From: Lentisphaerota bacterium
Lineage (GTDB): Bacteria > Verrucomicrobiota > Kiritimatiellia > RFP12 > JAAYLN01
Assembly: GCA_012521875.1 (NCBI GenBank)
Contig: JAAYLN010000141.1
Location: forward strand, 1-33,137
Length of the DNA stretch: 33,137 nt
Direction of reading: 5' to 3'
Each line of letters opens with the position of its first letter. The stretch's first letter is position 1. A program made the position numbers and the translations under genes. Positions 4,913-33,137 of this stretch are shown one piece after another. The notes beneath the pieces are model-generated. The model did not search any database. It was given only the letters and a program-made list of their open reading frames with translations, and was not told the DNA's origin.

Positions 4913-4914
4913 GT

Positions 4915-4943
4915 GAACCGCCAAGACGCCAAGGACGCCAAGC
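4915..4943 (+). repeat. Intergenic word AACCGCCAAGACGCCAAGGACGCCAAG
   Basis: Same word at 12203-12232 (+) and inverted around 17751-17778. Confidence 0.85.
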
Positions 4944-4952
4944 CGACGCCGC

Positions 4953-5000
4953 GATAGAATCGAATGAATCGAGTGATTCGACGGAATCGATTCGCCCGGT
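4953..5000. repeat. GAATCGA-type short repeat cluster
   Basis: atagaatcgaatgaatcgagtgattcgacggaatcgattc; similar cluster at 21676-21729. Confidence 0.7.
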
Positions 5001-5006
5001 TCATTC

Positions 5007-5105
5007 AAGGCTCTTGCAAAACCCCTTGCACGCACACGTGGCACGGGCATCTTGCCCGTGTTTCATGGGCGGAACGCCCATGCCACGAGGGGTTTTGCAA
5101 GCCCC
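5007..5105 (+). mobile_element. 99-bp MITE-like element: terminal inverted repeats (CTTGCAAAACCCC / GGGGTTTTGCAAG) around two palindromes
   Basis: Palindromes GGCACGGGCATCTTGCCCGTG and CATGGGCGGAACGCCCATG. Flanked by direct repeat TCATTC (5001-5006 and 5106-5111). Near-identical core at 21738-21836. Confidence 0.6.
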
Positions 5106-12036: not shown

Positions 12037-12117
12037 GATGGATGTCCTTAAAAGGCAGACACAAGAGTGATAGTGCAGTCATTTTCCCATGCCCGGGCCA
12101 TAAGGGAAAGGCGAAAT

Positions 12118-12390
12118 GTGGTAATCGGCTAGCGACAGGGATGCGCAAGAGGAGTGGACTGAATGCGGATGGAGCGTCCTCGTCCTCGTCCTCGATAGCG
12201 ATTGAACCGCCAAGACGCCAAGAGCGCCAAGAGGAACCACGAAAGACAGGAAGAGACGTGAAAAAGGGAGTAAGTGTGCGAGTGTGGGAAGTAAGTGCAA
12301 GAGTAGCGCACAGCACCCACTTAAACCCACTCTTAAACTCACTCTTAATCGGCACGCTTAATCCACCCGCTTACTCTTTAGCTTTCGACA
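12118..12390 (-). repeat. ~270-bp composite intergenic element (inverted relative to 17575-17858), pointing toward the Gfo/Idh/MocA gene
   Basis: On the minus strand, in order: TAAG array, GTGC-TGT-GCGC, CTTACTCCC, CTTGGCGCTCTTGGCGTCTTGGCGGTTCAATC, CGAGGACGAGG, CCATCCGCATTC, GCGCATCCCTGTCGCTAGCCGATTAC. Collinear with 17575-17858. Confidence 0.75.
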
Positions 12391-12621
12391 AAGTTTCCGA
12401 CAAAGCTCGCGACAAAGTGGGGGTCGCCACCACCCGCTCTCCATGCTCTCCCCGCGTCCCCTCTGTCAACAGCCGATTACGAAATGTGCGAAACCGCTTG
12501 CACCGCAAGGGCGGCTGGGGTAGGCTTGCATCTATTGAGCTGTAATCGCTCCGTGACGGGTGCGTGCATGCCACATGGCCCCGCTTCGGACCGGAGTCGC
12601 AACCGCCGGCAAGGATACCTT

Positions 12622-15600
12622 ATGACCATCAGACACCTCACCCGCCCGCTCATCACCGCCATGTCATTAGCTCTCGCAACGTCGCCGGCCTTTGCCGCCA
12701 CCGTCAGGACCGTCTATCAGGAGGAGTTCGACGGCTACGGCGATGCGGTCGAGGTCTTCAACCAGGGCGCCACCATCGCCGAGTGGCCCGCCTCGCTGAA
12801 GTCGCTCTGGCTCTCGGATGTGCGCGGCGACGCGCGCAAGACGCCTTTTCCCATCACCACGCCGCCGGCCACGGAGCGCTACACCTTTAGCTTCGCCTTC
12901 AAGTTCGGCCGTAGCGAGGCCCCGCGCGCCTTTCAACTGAAGCTCTACTTCAATGATTCCGGCCAATCCCGCGAAGTCATCCTCACCATTGATGAGGCGG
13001 GCTCGCGTTTCGGCCAGGCTGCCGTTGCCAAGCCCGCCGCAGGCCGGAAGGGCTTTCTCAACGATGGCAACTGGAACCAGGCGCTGATCGCGGTGCAGGG
13101 CCGTCAGGCGCGCCTCTTCCTCTGCCGCGGCGGTCTCTTTGCCGAGGAGTGTTCCGCCACCCTCCCCGCGGGGCGGCTGACCGGCTACAACTTCGCCTCC
13201 GGCACGCCCGTCGGCTTCGACTCCATCCGCATCGTCGAGAACGCCACGCACGAAGATCCCTATGCCTTCCGCTCCTACGTCGCGAAAATCGCGGCGGCGA
13301 GCGCGCGCGCCCGCGCCGCCGCCCTGCCCGATGCCCCCGCCGCCTACACCAACACCACCCCGCTCGGCAGCCTCGTCCTGGCCTACCGCTCCTCCGCCGA
13401 CACCCGCCGCAAGGACGACGTGATCAACCTCGCACTCCTGGACGGCACTTCGCATCCCATCCGTCTCCGCGCGCGGGACGGTCAGGCCCCCTTCGGCTAC
13501 CGCGCCTACGATGCGGCGGAGGGAGTTTTCAAGCCCGTCCCCGGCAACTGCGCCATCTCCAACCTGCTGCTCATGGTGAGCTCGCCCAAACTGGGCCGCA
13601 ACGTCTCCGTCTATACCCGACCGTGCCCGTACTACCGCTACAATCCGCCCGAACTGACCGAGAGTCTCGCCCACCTCGAAGCCTTCCCGGCCGCCGACAA
13701 CCATACGTTCGAGATCGCCCTGCACGCTACAGGCGTAGCCACCAACTACGAGGTCTGGGTCGATGCCAGGTTTGCCGGCCACCTGCCGCTCGCCGCGCCG
13801 CTGGCGGGCTTCACCGCCGCACTCAGCGGCCCCGCATCGAGCGTGCGTCTCGTCCGCGCCACGCCCGCCGGCCAGAGCGCCGGCCACGGCCTCTACCTGC
13901 CGCTGGACGTCAACGGCCTCGGCCGGCCCTTCGGTACACTCGCCGGCAAGGTCGAGTACCAGAAGGGTACCGTGCCCTTCCTGCCCGCCGATCCCGCCAA
14001 CGCCCTGAACCTGGCCCTCTGCCGCGAGAATCTCGGCTCCTTCGCCCTCGAATGCAACGGCTACCTCCAGCGCAGTGCCTTCGACGGCATGCCCTCCAGC
14101 ATGCACTTCGCCGTGCCCACCCGCCAGTATATCCGCGCCCACGCCCTCTGCGCGGTCGCACCCGACGCCCCCGCCGACTTCTTGCCCGTCGTGACCGCAC
14201 GCCTCACGCAGTTCCGCAGCGGCGACGGACGCTCCGAGGCGGTCTGCGACACCACCGTGCGCCTCCCCGCGCCCGGCTCGTCCGAGCCCCTCCCCGCCAA
14301 CGTGCGCGCCGTCGGCAAGGTCGGCAAAGTGCCGCTCTACCAAGTCGCCTTCGACTTCGACGTCGGCGCCATCCAGGACGTCGTCATGATGCAGGATCTG
14401 CCCAACCTCGACTTCGAGTTCCTGGGGCCGACCTACCGCAAGGACACCTACTACCTGAGCCGCAAGCGCTCGCCCGACTACGACACCTTCAGCTCGGTGC
14501 AGGTGCTGGCGGCCACGCTCGAACGCTCGCCCGTGGACTTCGTCGTGCTACCCGCGCGCGTCGGCAGCACCTACTATCCCGACGAGCAGGCGGGCTTTAC
14601 CGTCCGCGCCACCCCCGTGCGTCCCGGCGACAAGGCCACCTACACGGTCACCTGTACCGTCACCGACCGCGCCGGCCAGCAGCTCGATACCTTCACGGAA
14701 CGCTTTTCCGGCGCCATGGAACACACCTTCACCTTCCGCCAGAAGGCCTACGGCCCCTACAACACCATCTTCACCCTCGCGGACGCCGCCGGCAAGCTGC
14801 TCGTCACCCATCGCGCACGCTTCGCGCTGCTCCCGCCCGACACCCGCAAGGCCGGCTACGACGCCCCCTACTACAGTTGGAACTTCAACGGCGCCCACGG
14901 CACACCGCGCGACATCGCCGTCTGGGGCGACATGCTTAAGCGCATGGGCGTCCACCGCACCAATCTCGGCGGTCTCGCCGAGACCAACGAGCTCGCGCGC
15001 CGCTACCAGTTGACGATGGCCCAGTTCCCGCAACTGCGCGCCAAGACCGCCCCCGACGCCACCCCGGAGCAGCAGCGGCAGGCGATGATCGCGCAGGCAC
15101 GCGAACACACCGCCCGCTATCCCCACTGCAAGGCCGCGCTCATCTTCCACGAGAGCGGCGGTGGCGGCCCCTTCCCCGCCGAACTTCTGGGCGGCACAAC
15201 CACCATCACGCCCGAGCAGAAGCAGGAGGACGAGAAACGCACCGCCATCGCCCGCGAAGTGGCCGAGGCCTGGCGCGCCGCCGACCCCTCCGTCCGCATC
15301 GTGATCGGCAACACCGGCGAGTCGGTGGTGCCGATCGCCAAGATGTTCCGCGAAAAGCTGCCGCACAACCTGATCGACGCCATGGGCGAGGAGAGCGTCG
15401 GCATGACCATGCCGCCGGAACTCTCCACTGCCTACCCCGCCTTCAACCTCCGGCGCCTTGCCGAGATTTACGGCTACACCAATGTCATGCCGGAAGCCTG
15501 CTTCGAGTGGAAGTCGCGTGTGCGCCGCCACTTCCGCCCCGGTCTCGACGCCGCCTTCATCGCCCGCGACGCCCTGATCGCCCACGCCTGGCGCTTCCGC

Positions 15601-16698
15601 AATATCCCCGTCGTCGGCATCACCGAGATGGCCAACAGCTACTACGACACCATCTGGGGCTACGGTGCCTTCTCGCGCTGGCCGCTAGCCTACCCCAACG
15701 ACGCCTTCTCCGCCACCGCCACCCTCACTCTGGTGCTCGACCGCGCCACCTTCGTACGCCAGCTCCCCACGGGTTCGCCGACCCTCTACGCGCTCGAGTT
15801 CAAGCGCGACGGCAGCCGCATCTACGCGCTCTGGAGCGCACGCGGCGAGGCGGATGTCACGCTCGACCTCGGTACTGCGCGCTCCTACACCCGTACCGCA
15901 ATGTGCGGCGCGGTCGCGGAGGACCAGACCGCGACGCAGATCGTGGTTGACGAGGAGCCGCTCTACCTGACGCTGACCGCGCCCCTGGCCGGCGTCCGGA
16001 CCGCCCTCACGCGGCGCTACCCTCACGAGCAGTACGCCGGTGCCGACGCCGCCACCGTCGCCGCGCCCCTCGCCACGGCCGACGAGGTCGTGCTTGTCAA
16101 CACACCGGATCCGCGCATCGAGAGCACCACGTGCAACCCCTCCTTCATTGCCTTCTTCCGCCCCGGCGCCTACTCCGTCGCGGAGGTCGCCGACAACGAG
16201 CGCGGCGCCTGCATCGAGCTGACCCTCGCCACCAACACACCCGTCCCCTACCTCTACAACGAATACACCTTCCTGAAACTCGGCAAGACCGCCCCCGTGG
16301 CCGGCGAGCCCTCGACCATCAGCGTGTGGGTCAGGGGCAACTCCTCCTGGGGCAAAATCTTCTTCGAGGTCACGGATGCCGAGGGCGAGAAGTGGATCAG
16401 CGCCGGCTCCGGCGGCTACGGCTGCGTGACGCACGACTGGCCGGGACAGGCGGCCATCAACTTCGACGGCTGGCACTTCGTCCAGTTCCCCATTACCGCC
16501 GCCTCGCCCGTCAAGGTCCATGCCCCCGGCGAAAACCAGTGGCAGTGGCAGCACGACGGCGCGGACGGCAACAAGCGCATGGACTTCCCCATCCGCGTCA
16601 CGGGTCTCGGCGTGGCCATGCACCGCGAGGTGCTCAAGCTCACCGAGCTCGTCCCCGTCACACCCTCCATCCGCCTGCAGAACATTAGCGTTTTTTAG
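12622..16698 (+). CDS. Large exported protein (~1358 aa) with a probable glycoside-hydrolase-like region
   Basis: Signal peptide MTIRHLTRPLITAMSLALATSPAFA. Region PYYSWNFNGAHGTPRDIAVWGDMLKRMGVHRTNLGG...ALIFHESGGGG...NVMPEACFEWKSR...VVGITEMANSYYDTIWGYGAFSRWPL resembles a TIM-barrel glycosidase. Family not identified. Confidence 0.75.
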   Translation: MTIRHLTRPLITAMSLALATSPAFAATVRTVYQEEFDGYGDAVEVFNQGATIAEWPASLKSLWLSDVRGDARKTPFPITTPPATERYTFSFAFKFGRSEAPRAFQLKLYFNDSGQSREVILTIDEAGSRFGQAAVAKPAAGRKGFLNDGNWNQALIAVQGRQARLFLCRGGLFAEECSATLPAGRLTGYNFASGTPVGFDSIRIVENATHEDPYAFRSYVAKIAAASARARAAALPDAPAAYTNTTPLGSLVLAYRSSADTRRKDDVINLALLDGTSHPIRLRARDGQAPFGYRAYDAAEGVFKPVPGNCAISNLLLMVSSPKLGRNVSVYTRPCPYYRYNPPELTESLAHLEAFPAADNHTFEIALHATGVATNYEVWVDARFAGHLPLAAPLAGFTAALSGPASSVRLVRATPAGQSAGHGLYLPLDVNGLGRPFGTLAGKVEYQKGTVPFLPADPANALNLALCRENLGSFALECNGYLQRSAFDGMPSSMHFAVPTRQYIRAHALCAVAPDAPADFLPVVTARLTQFRSGDGRSEAVCDTTVRLPAPGSSEPLPANVRAVGKVGKVPLYQVAFDFDVGAIQDVVMMQDLPNLDFEFLGPTYRKDTYYLSRKRSPDYDTFSSVQVLAATLERSPVDFVVLPARVGSTYYPDEQAGFTVRATPVRPGDKATYTVTCTVTDRAGQQLDTFTERFSGAMEHTFTFRQKAYGPYNTIFTLADAAGKLLVTHRARFALLPPDTRKAGYDAPYYSWNFNGAHGTPRDIAVWGDMLKRMGVHRTNLGGLAETNELARRYQLTMAQFPQLRAKTAPDATPEQQRQAMIAQAREHTARYPHCKAALIFHESGGGGPFPAELLGGTTTITPEQKQEDEKRTAIAREVAEAWRAADPSVRIVIGNTGESVVPIAKMFREKLPHNLIDAMGEESVGMTMPPELSTAYPAFNLRRLAEIYGYTNVMPEACFEWKSRVRRHFRPGLDAAFIARDALIAHAWRFRNIPVVGITEMANSYYDTIWGYGAFSRWPLAYPNDAFSATATLTLVLDRATFVRQLPTGSPTLYALEFKRDGSRIYALWSARGEADVTLDLGTARSYTRTAMCGAVAEDQTATQIVVDEEPLYLTLTAPLAGVRTALTRRYPHEQYAGADAATVAAPLATADEVVLVNTPDPRIESTTCNPSFIAFFRPGAYSVAEVADNERGACIELTLATNTPVPYLYNEYTFLKLGKTAPVAGEPSTISVWVRGNSSWGKIFFEVTDAEGEKWISAGSGGYGCVTHDWPGQAAINFDGWHFVQFPITAASPVKVHAPGENQWQWQHDGADGNKRMDFPIRVTGLGVAMHREVLKLTELVPVTPSIRLQNISVF

Positions 16699-16832
16699 GC
16701 GCCGCCGGATTACCGGCTTTTTTGCCGGTAACCTTGCCGACTTCGCTGCCTGCTGCTTGTTTTCTCTCACAGAGGCAGGGGCAATTTGTGATTTGTGATT
16801 TGGCAGTGGCCTCCCGTTCGCTTCCGATGCAC

Positions 16833-16875
16833 TGGCACGGGCATCTTGCCCGTGTTGACGGCGTGAAACGCCGCC
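16833..16875 (+). repeat. Double-palindrome intergenic repeat: GGCACGGGCATCTTGCCCGTG followed by GGCG-TGAAA-CGCC
   Basis: First palindrome identical to the 99-bp elements, second one different. Confidence 0.65.
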
Positions 16876-17052
16876 CGGACGATCGACGCTCGTCCCTCCC
16901 AGCACTGCGCGATCCCGATCATCGTCCGACAACCAGATTGTCCATCATGCGGTCTTCATTGGCCTCATATGCCCAGAGTATATTCCGCAACACATCTTGT
17001 CTCGCGGAGTCTTCATCATCAAACCGAGACTGACAATCATATGCCTTGCTCT

Positions 17053-17283
17053 CTAGCCACCATCTTTTTCAAAATAAGTTCGTGGCAACTGTGATTGTCG
17101 GATGATCGATAAAAGTGTTCCCATTCTGATTTCACGATGCAGTGGGACAGGAACGGTAATTGTACCGCGTGGAGTTTGCATCTGCATGATGGCATGCCTG
17201 CCTTTTTGACGCACCAGAAAAAAACCATGCTCGCTTAACAAACGGCAAATGTCATGCCCCGAAAAAACACCGAGCTTAGGCAT
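17053..17283 (-). CDS. hicA: HicA-family toxin (mRNA interferase type)
   Basis: MPKLGVFSGHDICRLLSEHGFFLVRQKGRHAIMQMQTPRGTITVPVPLHREIRMGTLLSIIRQSQLPRTYFEK; G-R-H position matches the catalytic-His region; 8-nt overlap with hicB. Alternative start 17295. Confidence 0.87.
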   Translation of the reverse strand: MPKLGVFSGHDICRLLSEHGFFLVRQKGRHAIMQMQTPRGTITVPVPLHREIRMGTLLSIIRQSQLPRTYFEKDGG

Positions 17284-17500
17284 AAACGGCTTCAAATCGA
17301 GAGATGTACACTTCCCCTTTTAAACGGCTCTTAATTTCTTGTGCATCAGCACACTCCAAGTAGAGTTCAACAGCCTCCCGCAAGTTAGCCGCAGCCTCTT
17401 CAACCGTTTTTCCCTGACTGGCAATGTCCAGTTCGGGACAGAGGGAAACAAAACCGTCTCCCTCACGCTCAACAAACGCTGTTAATGAACATTTCGCCAT
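17276..17500 (-). CDS. hicB: HicB-family antitoxin
   Basis: MAKCSLTAFVEREGDGFVSLCPELDIASQGKTVEEAAANLREAVELYLE is HicB-like; RBS GGGGAG upstream of ATG 17500. Confidence 0.88.
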   Translation of the reverse strand: MAKCSLTAFVEREGDGFVSLCPELDIASQGKTVEEAAANLREAVELYLECADAQEIKSRLKGEVYISRFEAVYA

Positions 17501-17574
17501 AGGACTCCCCATTTCATGGCTACACCGTAGCACAAATTATCTACACAACCAAGAATGATTTAGCGTGGGGTGCA

Positions 17575-17858
17575 ATCGGTTGGTGCCGTTTAAGAGCGAG
17601 TTTAAGCGGGTGGTTTAAGTGTGTGCTTTGCACTTACTCTCACACTTAAACGGAACGCTTACTCCACCCGCTTACTCCCAGTTTCACGTCTTTTCATCTT
17701 TTGCGGTTAAACACACCCTCTCTGCGTGTCTTTTCTTTCGCGGCTCTCCTTGGCGCTCTTGGCGTCTTGGCGGTTCAATCTTTTTCGAGGATGAAGGCGA
17801 TCCATCCCGCATTCCGCCCGCTCTCCATGCGCACCCCTGCCGCCAGCCGATTACGGCG
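17575..17858 (+). repeat. ~280-bp composite intergenic element upstream of the GH99-like gene
   Basis: Collinear with the reverse complement of 12118-12390; contains TAAG array, GTGC-TTT-GCAC hairpin, CTTA array, CTTGGCGCTCTTGGCGTCTTGGCGGTTCAATC, and AGCCGATTAC. Confidence 0.75.
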
Positions 17859-19066: not shown

Positions 19067-19154
<88 letters not shown>

Positions 19155-19176
19155 AGCGCGGGTACGGGGGCATGGG

Positions 19177-19762: not shown

Positions 19763-19781
19763 CCCAGGGCGTTGCCCTGGG
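19763..19781. repeat. Palindromic word CCCAGGGC-GTT-GCCCTGGG
   Basis: Perfect 8-bp stem, flanked on both sides by GCCCCTTCAGGGC words. Confidence 0.7.
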
Positions 19782-19926
19782 CTGGTATATCGCGCCCCTT
19801 CAGGGCTTTCATCAACTTTGTCGCGAGCTTTGCCGGTAACTTTGTTGGTAACTTTGTCGAAATCGCAAGGAACCGCGAAAGCACGAAAGAGAAGGTGCAA
19901 TTTGCCGCGAATGCACGCGAAACTGG

Positions 19927-20003
19927 ATTAAGCGGGTGGAGTAAGCGTGCCGATTAAGAGTGGGTTTAAGTGTGGGGTTTAAGTGTGCACTTCGCACTTT
20001 CTT
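19927..20003 (+). repeat. TAAG-phased repeat copy (TAAG at 19929, 19942, 19955, 19967, 19980)
   Basis: Same spacing (13,13,12,13) and sequence as 20071-20146. Confidence 0.85.
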
Positions 20004-20070: not shown

Positions 20071-20146
20071 GATTAAGCGGGTGGAGTAAGCGTGCCGATT
20101 AAGAGTGAGATTAAGTGCGGAGTTTAAGTGGGTGCTTCGCACCTGC
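20071..20146 (+). repeat. TAAG-phased repeat copy (TAAG at 20074, 20087, 20100, 20112, 20125) ending in GTGC-TTC-GCAC
   Basis: Near-identical to 19927-20003. Confidence 0.85.
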
Positions 20147-21675: not shown

Positions 21676-21729
21676 ATGATCGAGCGAATCGACTCATTCG
21701 AATCCATCGATTCTATCGATTCTATCGAA
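21676..21729. repeat. AATCGA/ATCGATTCT short repeat cluster
   Basis: atcgagcgaatcgactcattcgaatccatcgattctatcgattctatcga. Confidence 0.75.
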
Positions 21730-21737
21730 AACCACTT

Positions 21738-21836
21738 GAGCCTCTTGCAAAAGCCTCGTGGCATGGGCGTTCCGCCCATGAAACACGGGCAAGATGCCCG
21801 TGCCACGTGTGCCTACAAGGGTTTTGCAAGAGGCTC
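21738..21836 (-). mobile_element. 99-bp MITE-like element with perfect 15-bp terminal inverted repeats GAGCCTCTTGCAAAA / TTTTGCAAGAGGCTC
   Basis: Two internal palindromes; candidate 4-bp target-site duplication ACTT (21734-21737 and 21837-21840); inverted relative to 5007-5105. Confidence 0.65.
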
Positions 21837-28907: not shown

Positions 28908-28920
28908 TGGTGCGAAGGTG

Positions 28921-31900
28921 ATGACCGAACCACGAATCGCGTCATTCCGCACGCTGGCCGACCTGCTGACGGTGCAACTGGCGCAGACGCCCGGCGTCGA
29001 GACCGTCGAGCGCGCCGAACTGGACCGCGTTTTGCGCGAGCAGGCGCTCACCGCCGCCGGCCTGGCCGACGGCGCGCAGGGGCGCGTGGCCGTGGGACGC
29101 CTGCTGCGGGCCGATGGCTTTCTCTTCCTCGCGCGCACCGCCTCGCTGCGGCAGTACGCGTCGCGCCTGGTCGAGGCGCGCCACGGCTGCCAGGTCATGC
29201 AGATGCTCTACGCCACCAACGAGGCGCCGGCGGTGATCGCGGAACGCATCGCCGGTGCCGTGTCGGCCAAGCTGCCGACCCTGCGGCTGGCGGATGAGCA
29301 GCGCATCCTGCTCAACGTCATCCGCCTCGGCAACGCCACGCTCGATCCCCGGGCCGGCTGGATCGAGACCGACGGCGTCACGATGCTCTCGGGCTGTCTG
29401 GCGGCGCACCCCGCCGTCCTGGTTGTCGAGCGGCGCGAGATGGGCACGCTGCTGCAGGAGAGCCAGTTGGCCGATGCCGCCGCGCCCGCGTTCCGCGCCG
29501 CCGACTTCCTGATCGATGGCGATGTCTTTCTTACGCCTGGATCCACCAAGGCGCAAGATGATCTGCCCGTCACCCTCGTGCTGCGCCTGCGCGACATGCA
29601 ACTGGTGGAACAGGCGCGCGTGACGCGGTACGGTGGTCTCAACAATCTGGAGGACCTGCTGGTCGAGGCCGCCGCGGAGATGCTGAAAGAGGCAACGACT
29701 CGGCGGCCTGCCATCGAGGGCGCCGCGCAGCTCGAATCCCGCTTCATGAGGGATTTTGGACGCTTTGGCATGCATAAGCTTTGGGCGGTCGAGGCGGCAT
29801 ACGCCCTGGATGCCACCAATGCGGCTGCCCGCCGTGCGCTTGTCAATAGGCTGCTGCGCGTGGCGCAAACCGACAACACTCCCGCGCTTGCCACATGGGA
29901 ACAATGCCGCAGTGCTTATCTGGAGAGGGCGCATTATCTTGCGCAGGTTATCAGCCTCATCGAGCAGGATCCCGATTTGAGGAAGAAACGTTTGGTTGCC
30001 CAATTTCCCATGTCACACGTGCTTGTCGTCCGCGAGTACAAAACGACGCAGAGATATCTGGATTGGGCCAATGATCGCGAGTTGCAGGAGATCCTGCAAC
30101 CGGTACGGTCGCGGGCGCGCTTCGAGATGGCGCAGCACCTGCTGCCGCATGTCGGTTGGTACCCCTCCATGTGCCGGGAGCTCTACGCGATGTTCGAGAG
30201 CGTGGCGGAGTCGGCGACCTACTTGCAGACGCTGGCTGAGCGCCTGGCTGTAGATCCCCAGTTGAAGCCGCTCGAACGCCAGAAACGCGTCTCTGTGCTT
30301 CTGAGTTGCACAACGCTTCCGCCACGGCTCTACGACAACCTGTGTACCAACGCGGATCCTGTCGTCCGGTTTTTCGCGCATGTCAAGGCCGCCCGTGTCA
30401 GCGCCTCTGCCGAAAAGCGCGACCAACACTACACCGCCGTGTTGGAGCTGCTTCCCGATTTGCTGCGCTGCACGCAACTGGCCATCTTCTTCGCCGAGTG
30501 GCACTCGCGGAACGATGGACACCATCATTACAACTTTTTGCGCAATACGCTGCTTGCTATCCGCAACGCTGGCTTTGGTAAGCAGGTGAATGCCGCCCTG
30601 TTGGCCCAGTGCGAAATGTGGCTGGAAGCCGGCGATCTGGCCTCCCTGTGCGACACCTGGTCGGATCAGTATTTCGAATGGTTCGAGCAGGGCGTTGCCG
30701 ATTCACTGCTGGACCGGATAGGGATGCTTCGCACGGTGCCATCCACCCGTTTGCCGCGTTCACACCATGGAAAGAGGGCGCTGGAACGTATCGAGAAAAG
30801 CTGCATCGAGCTTGCCCGCCGCCGCAGTCCTGCGACTCAGGTCTCTCCCGGCGACAAGTTGGCGATGCTCGCGCCGAACGACCGTTACCTCAGGGAGCAC
30901 GGTATATCTCTGGATGGTCTCGACTTCGCGGTTACGCCGCAGCGCCTGTTGGTCGATGGCGATAAACTGTGGATTGCACTTGGCGGGCACGATCTAAACG
31001 ATTTTTCGCGGGACAATACCGACTACACCGGGTTGATACGGATGAACTTGAAAACCGGCGCCATCGACTACTCGCGCTTCGGTAAAATTGTAACCCCGCG
31101 TGGCCGCCCGTATGTATCGGACTGTCAACATGTGTACCATGCCTTTTCGCCTCTCTTCTTCTGGAAGGCAAATATCTGCCTTGCCAGGCGTGGACAGGGC
31201 GTATATCTGTTTCCCCGCGATGCACCTGCGGGCGCGGGCGACTTGTCCGACGTCCGACTGCTGGGCGCTGAGATCGGACTGTCGTCGCTCAACATAACGG
31301 ATGCCGCCGCGCTGGGCGACACGCTCTATATCGCGCTGCCCAACACCTTGCTTGCCTGGCGCAAGGACGCTGCCAAGGCGCGTGTCGTGGCGGTGACGGC
31401 CACGGAAACGGCGACCGGGCCACTGGCATCGGTCGGCTTGATTGATGGTCTGGTGGCTGATGCCGCGTCAGACCGGCTCTATCTTTTCACGAAGCGCTCA
31501 ATCTGGCGCTATACACCGGCTGACGATACATGGACAAAACTGGTCAGCGACGACCGCCGTGTCAGTACTTCGCGCTTGGCACATGGCATCATCACCAGCA
31601 CGCCTGGTCTGGTTCTGTTCACCAAAACACGGCGCAAGGGACGTGGTAGTGGTTCTTTGTTGAACGAGGCTTTAGTTGACATCACCGCTTGTTTCCGCCT
31701 GGCTGACGAGTCGATCGGAGACCCGCCTGTCGAACTCGCCACGCCCGAGAACTATCTGGCCCGCTACGATGTGGCGCGTTATCGCGGCGGTACGATCGTC
31801 ATCGGCGGCAACTATTTTATCAGCAGCCCTCCGGACTGGGAGTTGGCCTATCTGGTCGGGGCCACCAACACGATCAGCGGCGACATGCCCTGGCTCATTC

Positions 31901-33105: not shown

Positions 33106-33137
33106 TGATGACCGAACCACGAATCACGTCATTCCGC
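33102..33137 (+). CDS. 5' end of a tandem paralog of the 28921 gene (truncated by the window)
   Basis: ATG ATG ATG ACC GAA CCA CGA ATC ACG TCA TTC CGC. From 33107 it matches 28920-28950 at 30 of 31 positions; ATGA overlap with the upstream stop. Confidence 0.65.
   Translation, partial: MMMTEPRITSFR

Follow-up and report, generated by a model that had tools for sequence, protein, structure and literature searches.

The block that occurs in two inverted copies near 12.1 and 17.6 kb of the window, i.e., the whole stretch of 33,137 nucleotides analyzed here, is very probably a gene-less, non-autonomous MITE of 250–570 bp that has IS66-family ends and would be mobilized by IS66. The initial annotation had described two inverted copies with collinear modules, and BLASTN bore this out: the reverse complement of the 12.1-kb block (copy A) aligns collinearly to the 17.6-kb block (copy B), with E = 1.4e-28 for the half that runs from CTTGGCG to the end and E = 4e-16 for the TAAG half. 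What is missing from that annotation is the transposable-element nature of the block, with its terminal inverted repeats (TIRs), target-site duplications (TSDs), autonomous IS66 counterpart, and independent cargo modules.

All copy analyses were based on fetched loci and genome searches. Searching the genome of origin (3.96 Mb, 469 contigs) with copy B, as had been proposed for defining boundaries and copy number, returned 105 matches, many of which are near-full length and span query positions 14 to 285–293 with reproducible ends. The shared start and stop positions of these matches show that the block is one member of a repeat family that is spread through the genome and has defined ends. 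TIRs of about 20 bp (GTAATCGGYTRNYGACAGGG) bound the element, and the TIR pattern matched 125 times in the own genome (≤2 mismatches), compared to a single match for the reversed pattern. Pairing the TIR ends in all fetched loci from the own genome and from other MAGs yielded 47 candidate elements of 150–620 bp. A perfect TSD of 7–10 bp flanks 14 of the 47 pairs, whereas only 1 of 1058 mismatched flank controls showed a duplication and none of the 1058 had one of at least 8 bp. The other MAGs contributed 24 pairs, 10 of them with a perfect TSD (9–10 bp), and the own genome 23 pairs, only 4 of them with a perfect TSD (7–9 bp). Beyond copy A, the own-genome duplications read TCCTTTCGT (C328, 9 bp), TGATTTTT (C128, 8 bp), and CGCACTA (C167, 7 bp). 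TSD length is mostly 9 bp, with 8 bp in copy A and in the Planctomycetota locus L113, and the flanking sequence differs at each copy. Ends, duplications, and copy number were in this way observed directly.

The initial annotation located both blocks but not their exact borders, which it set at 12118–12390 and 17575–17858; the true limits are 12121–12480 for copy A and 17572–17854 for copy B. For copy A, that reading stopped 90 bp short and overlooked the other TIR and the TTTGTCG module (12391–12480). Both ends of copy A read GTAATCGGCT and GAAATGTG flanks each side, i.e., the copy has TIRs and a perfect 8-bp direct duplication. Its features are as follows.

12121–12480, minus strand (5′ to 3′ on the minus strand): copy A, complete MITE of 360 bp with TIRs at both ends and an 8-bp TSD
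12113–12120: TSD, copy 1, GAAATGTG on the plus strand
12481–12488: TSD, copy 2, GAAATGTG on the plus strand
12461–12480, minus strand: left TIR (T), GTAATCGGCTGTTGACAGAG
12382–12418, minus strand: module Q, (ACTTTGTCG)n, with the same border as after Acido-Lenti-1 repeats elsewhere
12311–12376, minus strand: module HA, TAAG array, left arm of a long hairpin
12264–12309, minus strand: module ZC, CTTACTC array, right hairpin arm, decayed (fold z −0.95)
12250–12264, minus strand: module S, TTTCACGTCTCTT
12200–12231, minus strand: module N, CTTGGCGCTCTTGGCGTCTTGGCGGTTCAATC, 202 copies in the own genome
12176–12196, minus strand: module E, TCGAGGACGAGGAC repeat
12121–12172, minus strand: module P/t, CCATCCGCATTC...CCGATTAC, right terminal arm
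12121–12140, plus strand: right TIR (t), GTAATCGGCTAGCGACAGGG

According to the approximate gene calls, copy A lies between a GFO/IDH/MocA oxidoreductase gene on the minus strand and a large ORF without Pfam match on the plus strand, and copy B is found upstream of the gene for a WbsX-like protein. Copy B retains its right end and lacks the left arm and the TTTGTCG module.

17572–17854, plus strand: copy B, internally deleted MITE of 283 bp without a clear TSD
17572–17585, plus strand: left TIR remnant of 14 bp, GCAATCGGTTGGTG, fused directly to the TAAG array
17583–17680, plus strand: TAAG/CTTACTC hairpin (DNA fold z −4.25)
17749–17778, plus strand: module N
17835–17854, minus strand: right TIR, GTAATCGGCTGGCGGCAGGG

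Since its left end is reduced to a 14-bp remnant and no clear TSD is present, copy B would be an internally deleted, older copy. The features expected of a MITE are found in the family: it is short and multicopy, has TIRs at both ends, contains no transposase gene, and is flanked by a TSD at copy A, though not at copy B.

Single modules had also been reported to occur alone at 4915, 19067, and 19927. This holds for the CTTGGCG module and the TAAG array, which we found at the following positions.

4914–4942, minus strand: solo module N, outside any TIR pair
19926–19997, plus strand: solo HA-type TAAG array
20071–20142, plus strand: solo HA-type TAAG array

Position 19067 represents a different, unrelated motif, ACGCAGAGGCGCAGAG, with a GTCCTC run nearby at 19125–19155. 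The ACGCAGAGGCGCAGAG repeat (19067–19090) lies outside the MITE, and its motif also occurs beside another copy of the element (L017).

In the own genome, the founder order of the modules is T-Q-HA-ZC-S-U-N-E-P-t: a terminal repeat comes first, followed by the TTTGTCG repeats, the arms of the TAAG hairpin, TTTCACGTC, an optional short segment, CTTGGCG, GAGGAC, and finally the second terminal arm. The proposal of a modular element with conserved order, rather than random low complexity, passed the order test, as 370 same-strand module pairs are in canonical order and 68 are not. Of the 303 opposite-strand pairs, the majority include the CTTACTC module, an inverse copy of the TAAG module. Chance or low complexity is ruled out by the 105 matches, the TIR excess over the reversed control, and the conserved order. 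A simpler subtype of about 250 bp has TTTGTCG repeats inverted between the ends.

Differing interiors under the same ends were observed directly: these ends bound unrelated sequence in other species, e.g., of the GGGAGCGCGGGCGTCCCCGCCCGC or CGATAGCGATACCGAT type. Within a phylum sample of 241 genomes, one genome (G062) has 124 CTTGGCG copies and no TIR, and another (G010) has 9 TIRs and no CTTGGCG. Furthermore, a TTTGTCG-TAAG string follows 14 of the 19 Acido-Lenti-1 repeats checked in the own genome, and the sharp border seen in copy A is found there too. Together with the dissociation of ends and module N, this shows that ends and cargo are separable. No match was found in phage records, and in plasmid records the sole match, of 30 bp, was to the CTTGGCG module and lies on a Nostoc plasmid. 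Sequence similar to a further inverted repeat of the window, of the ATCGATTCGA type (4952–4998 and 21681–21727, 47 nt, 83%) and apparently another interspersed family, was seen within one MITE copy (L011).

IS66 ends follow a GTAA terminus rule, and the element has ends of this type, with GTAA termini and 8–9 bp duplications. Scanning genome contigs with the TIR pattern gave, among the matches listed, hits in Kiritimatiellae, Lentisphaerae, Verrucomicrobia, Planctomycetota, and Armatimonadota MAGs. We observed the same ends directly on two complete IS66 elements. In a Planctomycetota MAG (L113), exact TIRs lie 2,012 bp apart within an 8-bp TSD (CTGCAGCA) and an ORF matches PF03050 (DDE_Tnp_IS66, E = 8.9e-35). 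An order-level relative (G029) carries an element of 2,023 bp whose ends are the same apart from 2 mismatches each, with a TSD of 9 bp and a PF03050 match (E = 4.8e-36). In the Verrucomicrobia MAG UR.bin27, many contigs break about 50–130 bp inside the TIR on one identical sequence, which is similar to both IS66 elements; such breaks are the pattern that would be expected of a multicopy insertion sequence. An Armatimonadota locus runs on into DNA that is 82% identical to the G029 element. The G029 (locus L158) and L113 elements also have in common an upstream 109-aa ORF beginning with MKT, and their transposases are very similar. The occurrence of such close IS66 relatives in different phyla suggests horizontal spread.

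Autonomous partners with the same ends are thus found in other genomes (L113 and G029) and not in the own genome. Since the latter has no PF03050 match, the element is a MITE and not an IS. No IS66 transposase was found in the own genome or in the sole same-genus relative, both of which are fragmented drafts (469 and 570 contigs), and no longer TIR pairs enclosing a transposase with a perfect duplication were found in the own genome. The IS66 driver may have been lost or may be unassembled in these drafts. That the MITE arose by simple internal deletion from either of these IS66 elements is ruled out, as its similarity to them mostly stops after about 20–37 bp. Among family relatives, which are too diverged at the locus, we found no orthologous DNA and hence no empty site. 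Documented IS66 elements have 8-bp repeats and ends of 22–35 bp (PMC3281130). The missing transposase in the two drafts, TSDs of mostly 9 bp rather than these 8 bp, perfect TSDs at only 4/23 own-genome pairs, the short similarity to IS66, and the lack of an empty site among such diverged relatives count against an IS66-mobilized MITE.

The genomic placement of the copies bears on alternative explanations. Genes were called with a simple caller based on codon usage, for which the window served as training set, and the calls are approximate. Of the intact pairs in the own genome, 10 are in divergent gaps, 3 in co-directional gaps, and 0 in convergent gaps, compared to 7 divergent gaps among 38 controls (Fisher p = 2.6e-4); the corresponding numbers for other MAGs are 8, 7, and 0, with 18/103 divergent controls (p = 4.5e-3). 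Taken together, 18/28 intact copies are located between divergent gene starts and 0/28 in convergent gaps, which argues against a role as terminator. A structured RNA or a bidirectional terminator or mRNA-stabilizing element of the REP/BIME kind, with hairpins acting at gene ends, is for this reason highly improbable. Such a function would agree with the intergenic location and with the strong fold of the full TAAG/CTTACTC hairpin in a well-preserved copy (z −9.45 vs. shuffles), but copy A has a decayed hairpin (z −0.95), neither an Rfam match nor a terminator-like sequence was found within it, and the TIRs with their TSDs would be left unexplained. Only 8 full hairpins could be extracted for covariation analysis, and their register is ambiguous. 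REP/BIME mosaic repeats are likewise high-copy, intergenic, palindromic, and modular (PMC2817692). However, REPs are palindromes of 20–40 bp linked to tyrosine transposases (PMC2817692, PMC3733652), whereas the element described here is bounded by TIRs and TSDs, measures 250–570 bp, and avoids convergent gaps, so that its unit structure does not fit REP.

We also give very little credence to a dispersed mosaic without a transposition unit, in which recombination or template switching would spread and connect the modules, with a segmental duplication behind the likeness of copies A and B. Many modules do occur alone or in other combinations, as shown by the 202 CTTGGCG copies, and some module strings are rearranged or inverted, but a mosaic of this kind does not account for outer borders that recur from copy to copy, inverted ends that match each other, the TSDs of 14/47 pairs, and flanks that differ at each copy. 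The divergent excess in the own genome (10/13 vs. 7/38) and in other MAGs (8/15 vs. 18/103) could further indicate that intact MITE copies are retained as regulatory or insulating sequence between divergent promoters. This would add to the preferred explanation rather than offer another origin, and we consider it unlikely: consensus scanning revealed no promoter or terminator inside copy A and no promoter-like site near it, divergent gaps are not enriched for solo ends in the own genome (8/37), and insertion preference or better survival in gaps without through-transcription would give the same pattern. The bias fits an insertion preference or a better survival upstream of divergent genes.

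For the IS66-mobilized MITE, we propose that an IS66 transposase, present now or formerly in the lineage, would recognize the ends in trans and shift whatever stands between them, leaving an 8–9 bp target duplication. The interior may have been built by successive capture or recombination of resident modules (TTTGTCG, TAAG hairpin, CTTGGCG, GAGGAC), which are independently dispersed, and the fixed module order would go back to a single founder MITE. Copy B and other deleted copies, along with some solo modules, would then be decay products, and other solo modules independent repeats. The family looks old in the own genome and is probably immobile there.

MITEs and IS66 are each already known. 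The element resembles IS66-family insertion sequences in its GTAA ends, its 8–9 bp TSDs, and the complete IS66 elements with the same ends in related phyla, but it has neither transposase nor accessory ORFs, and its interior is unrelated to IS66. Like other bacterial MITEs, e.g., MITEPsy1 of Pseudomonas syringae (PMC3189936), it is short, gene-less, TIR-bounded, and presumed to be trans-mobilized by an IS transposase. Unlike in these, the interior consists of independently dispersed repeats, arranged as a mosaic of fixed order, and varies between species under the same ends. In the open-licence literature searched, we found no IS66-linked MITE, with or without such a fixed-order, species-variable repeat cargo. 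We tentatively raise the possibility that an IS66-type “shell” transports short repeats from a resident vocabulary, with the same ends carrying different dispersed motifs in each lineage and retention favored in divergent promoter gaps. If this is true, such MITEs would be one vehicle by which ubiquitous orphan intergenic motifs like CTTGGCG spread within and between genomes. An unexplained intergenic repeat patchwork becomes a testable object with defined ends, a TSD, and a named transposase family, and, since the transposon ends can be separated from the interior motifs, the origin of motifs like CTTGGCG is directly testable. With the bias toward divergent promoter gaps, the question also arises whether the element has regulatory effects.

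Further repeats were noted in the window and the genome. The only Rfam hit in the window was Acido-Lenti-1 (RF01687) at 19763–19807 on the plus strand, with none inside the MITE. Rfam files Acido-Lenti-1 as an sRNA; in the own genome, it is a repeat dispersed in high copy number, with 136 matches, about 20 of which are arranged as inverted pairs with a constant outer span of about 205 bp. In appearance, it resembles inverted arms belonging to a mobile or repeat element and not an RNA gene with a single locus. Another dispersed intergenic family is represented by a 77-nt inverted repeat with the TGGCACGGGCATCTTGCCCGTG motif (5019–5095 and 21749–21825, 94% complementary), of which a third partial copy lies at 16833–16872. 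Finally, two successive genes, the latter of which is cut by the window end, share a 32-nt direct repeat at their starts (28919–28950 and 33106–33137, 97%), suggesting either tandem paralogous genes or a contig end caused by the repeat.
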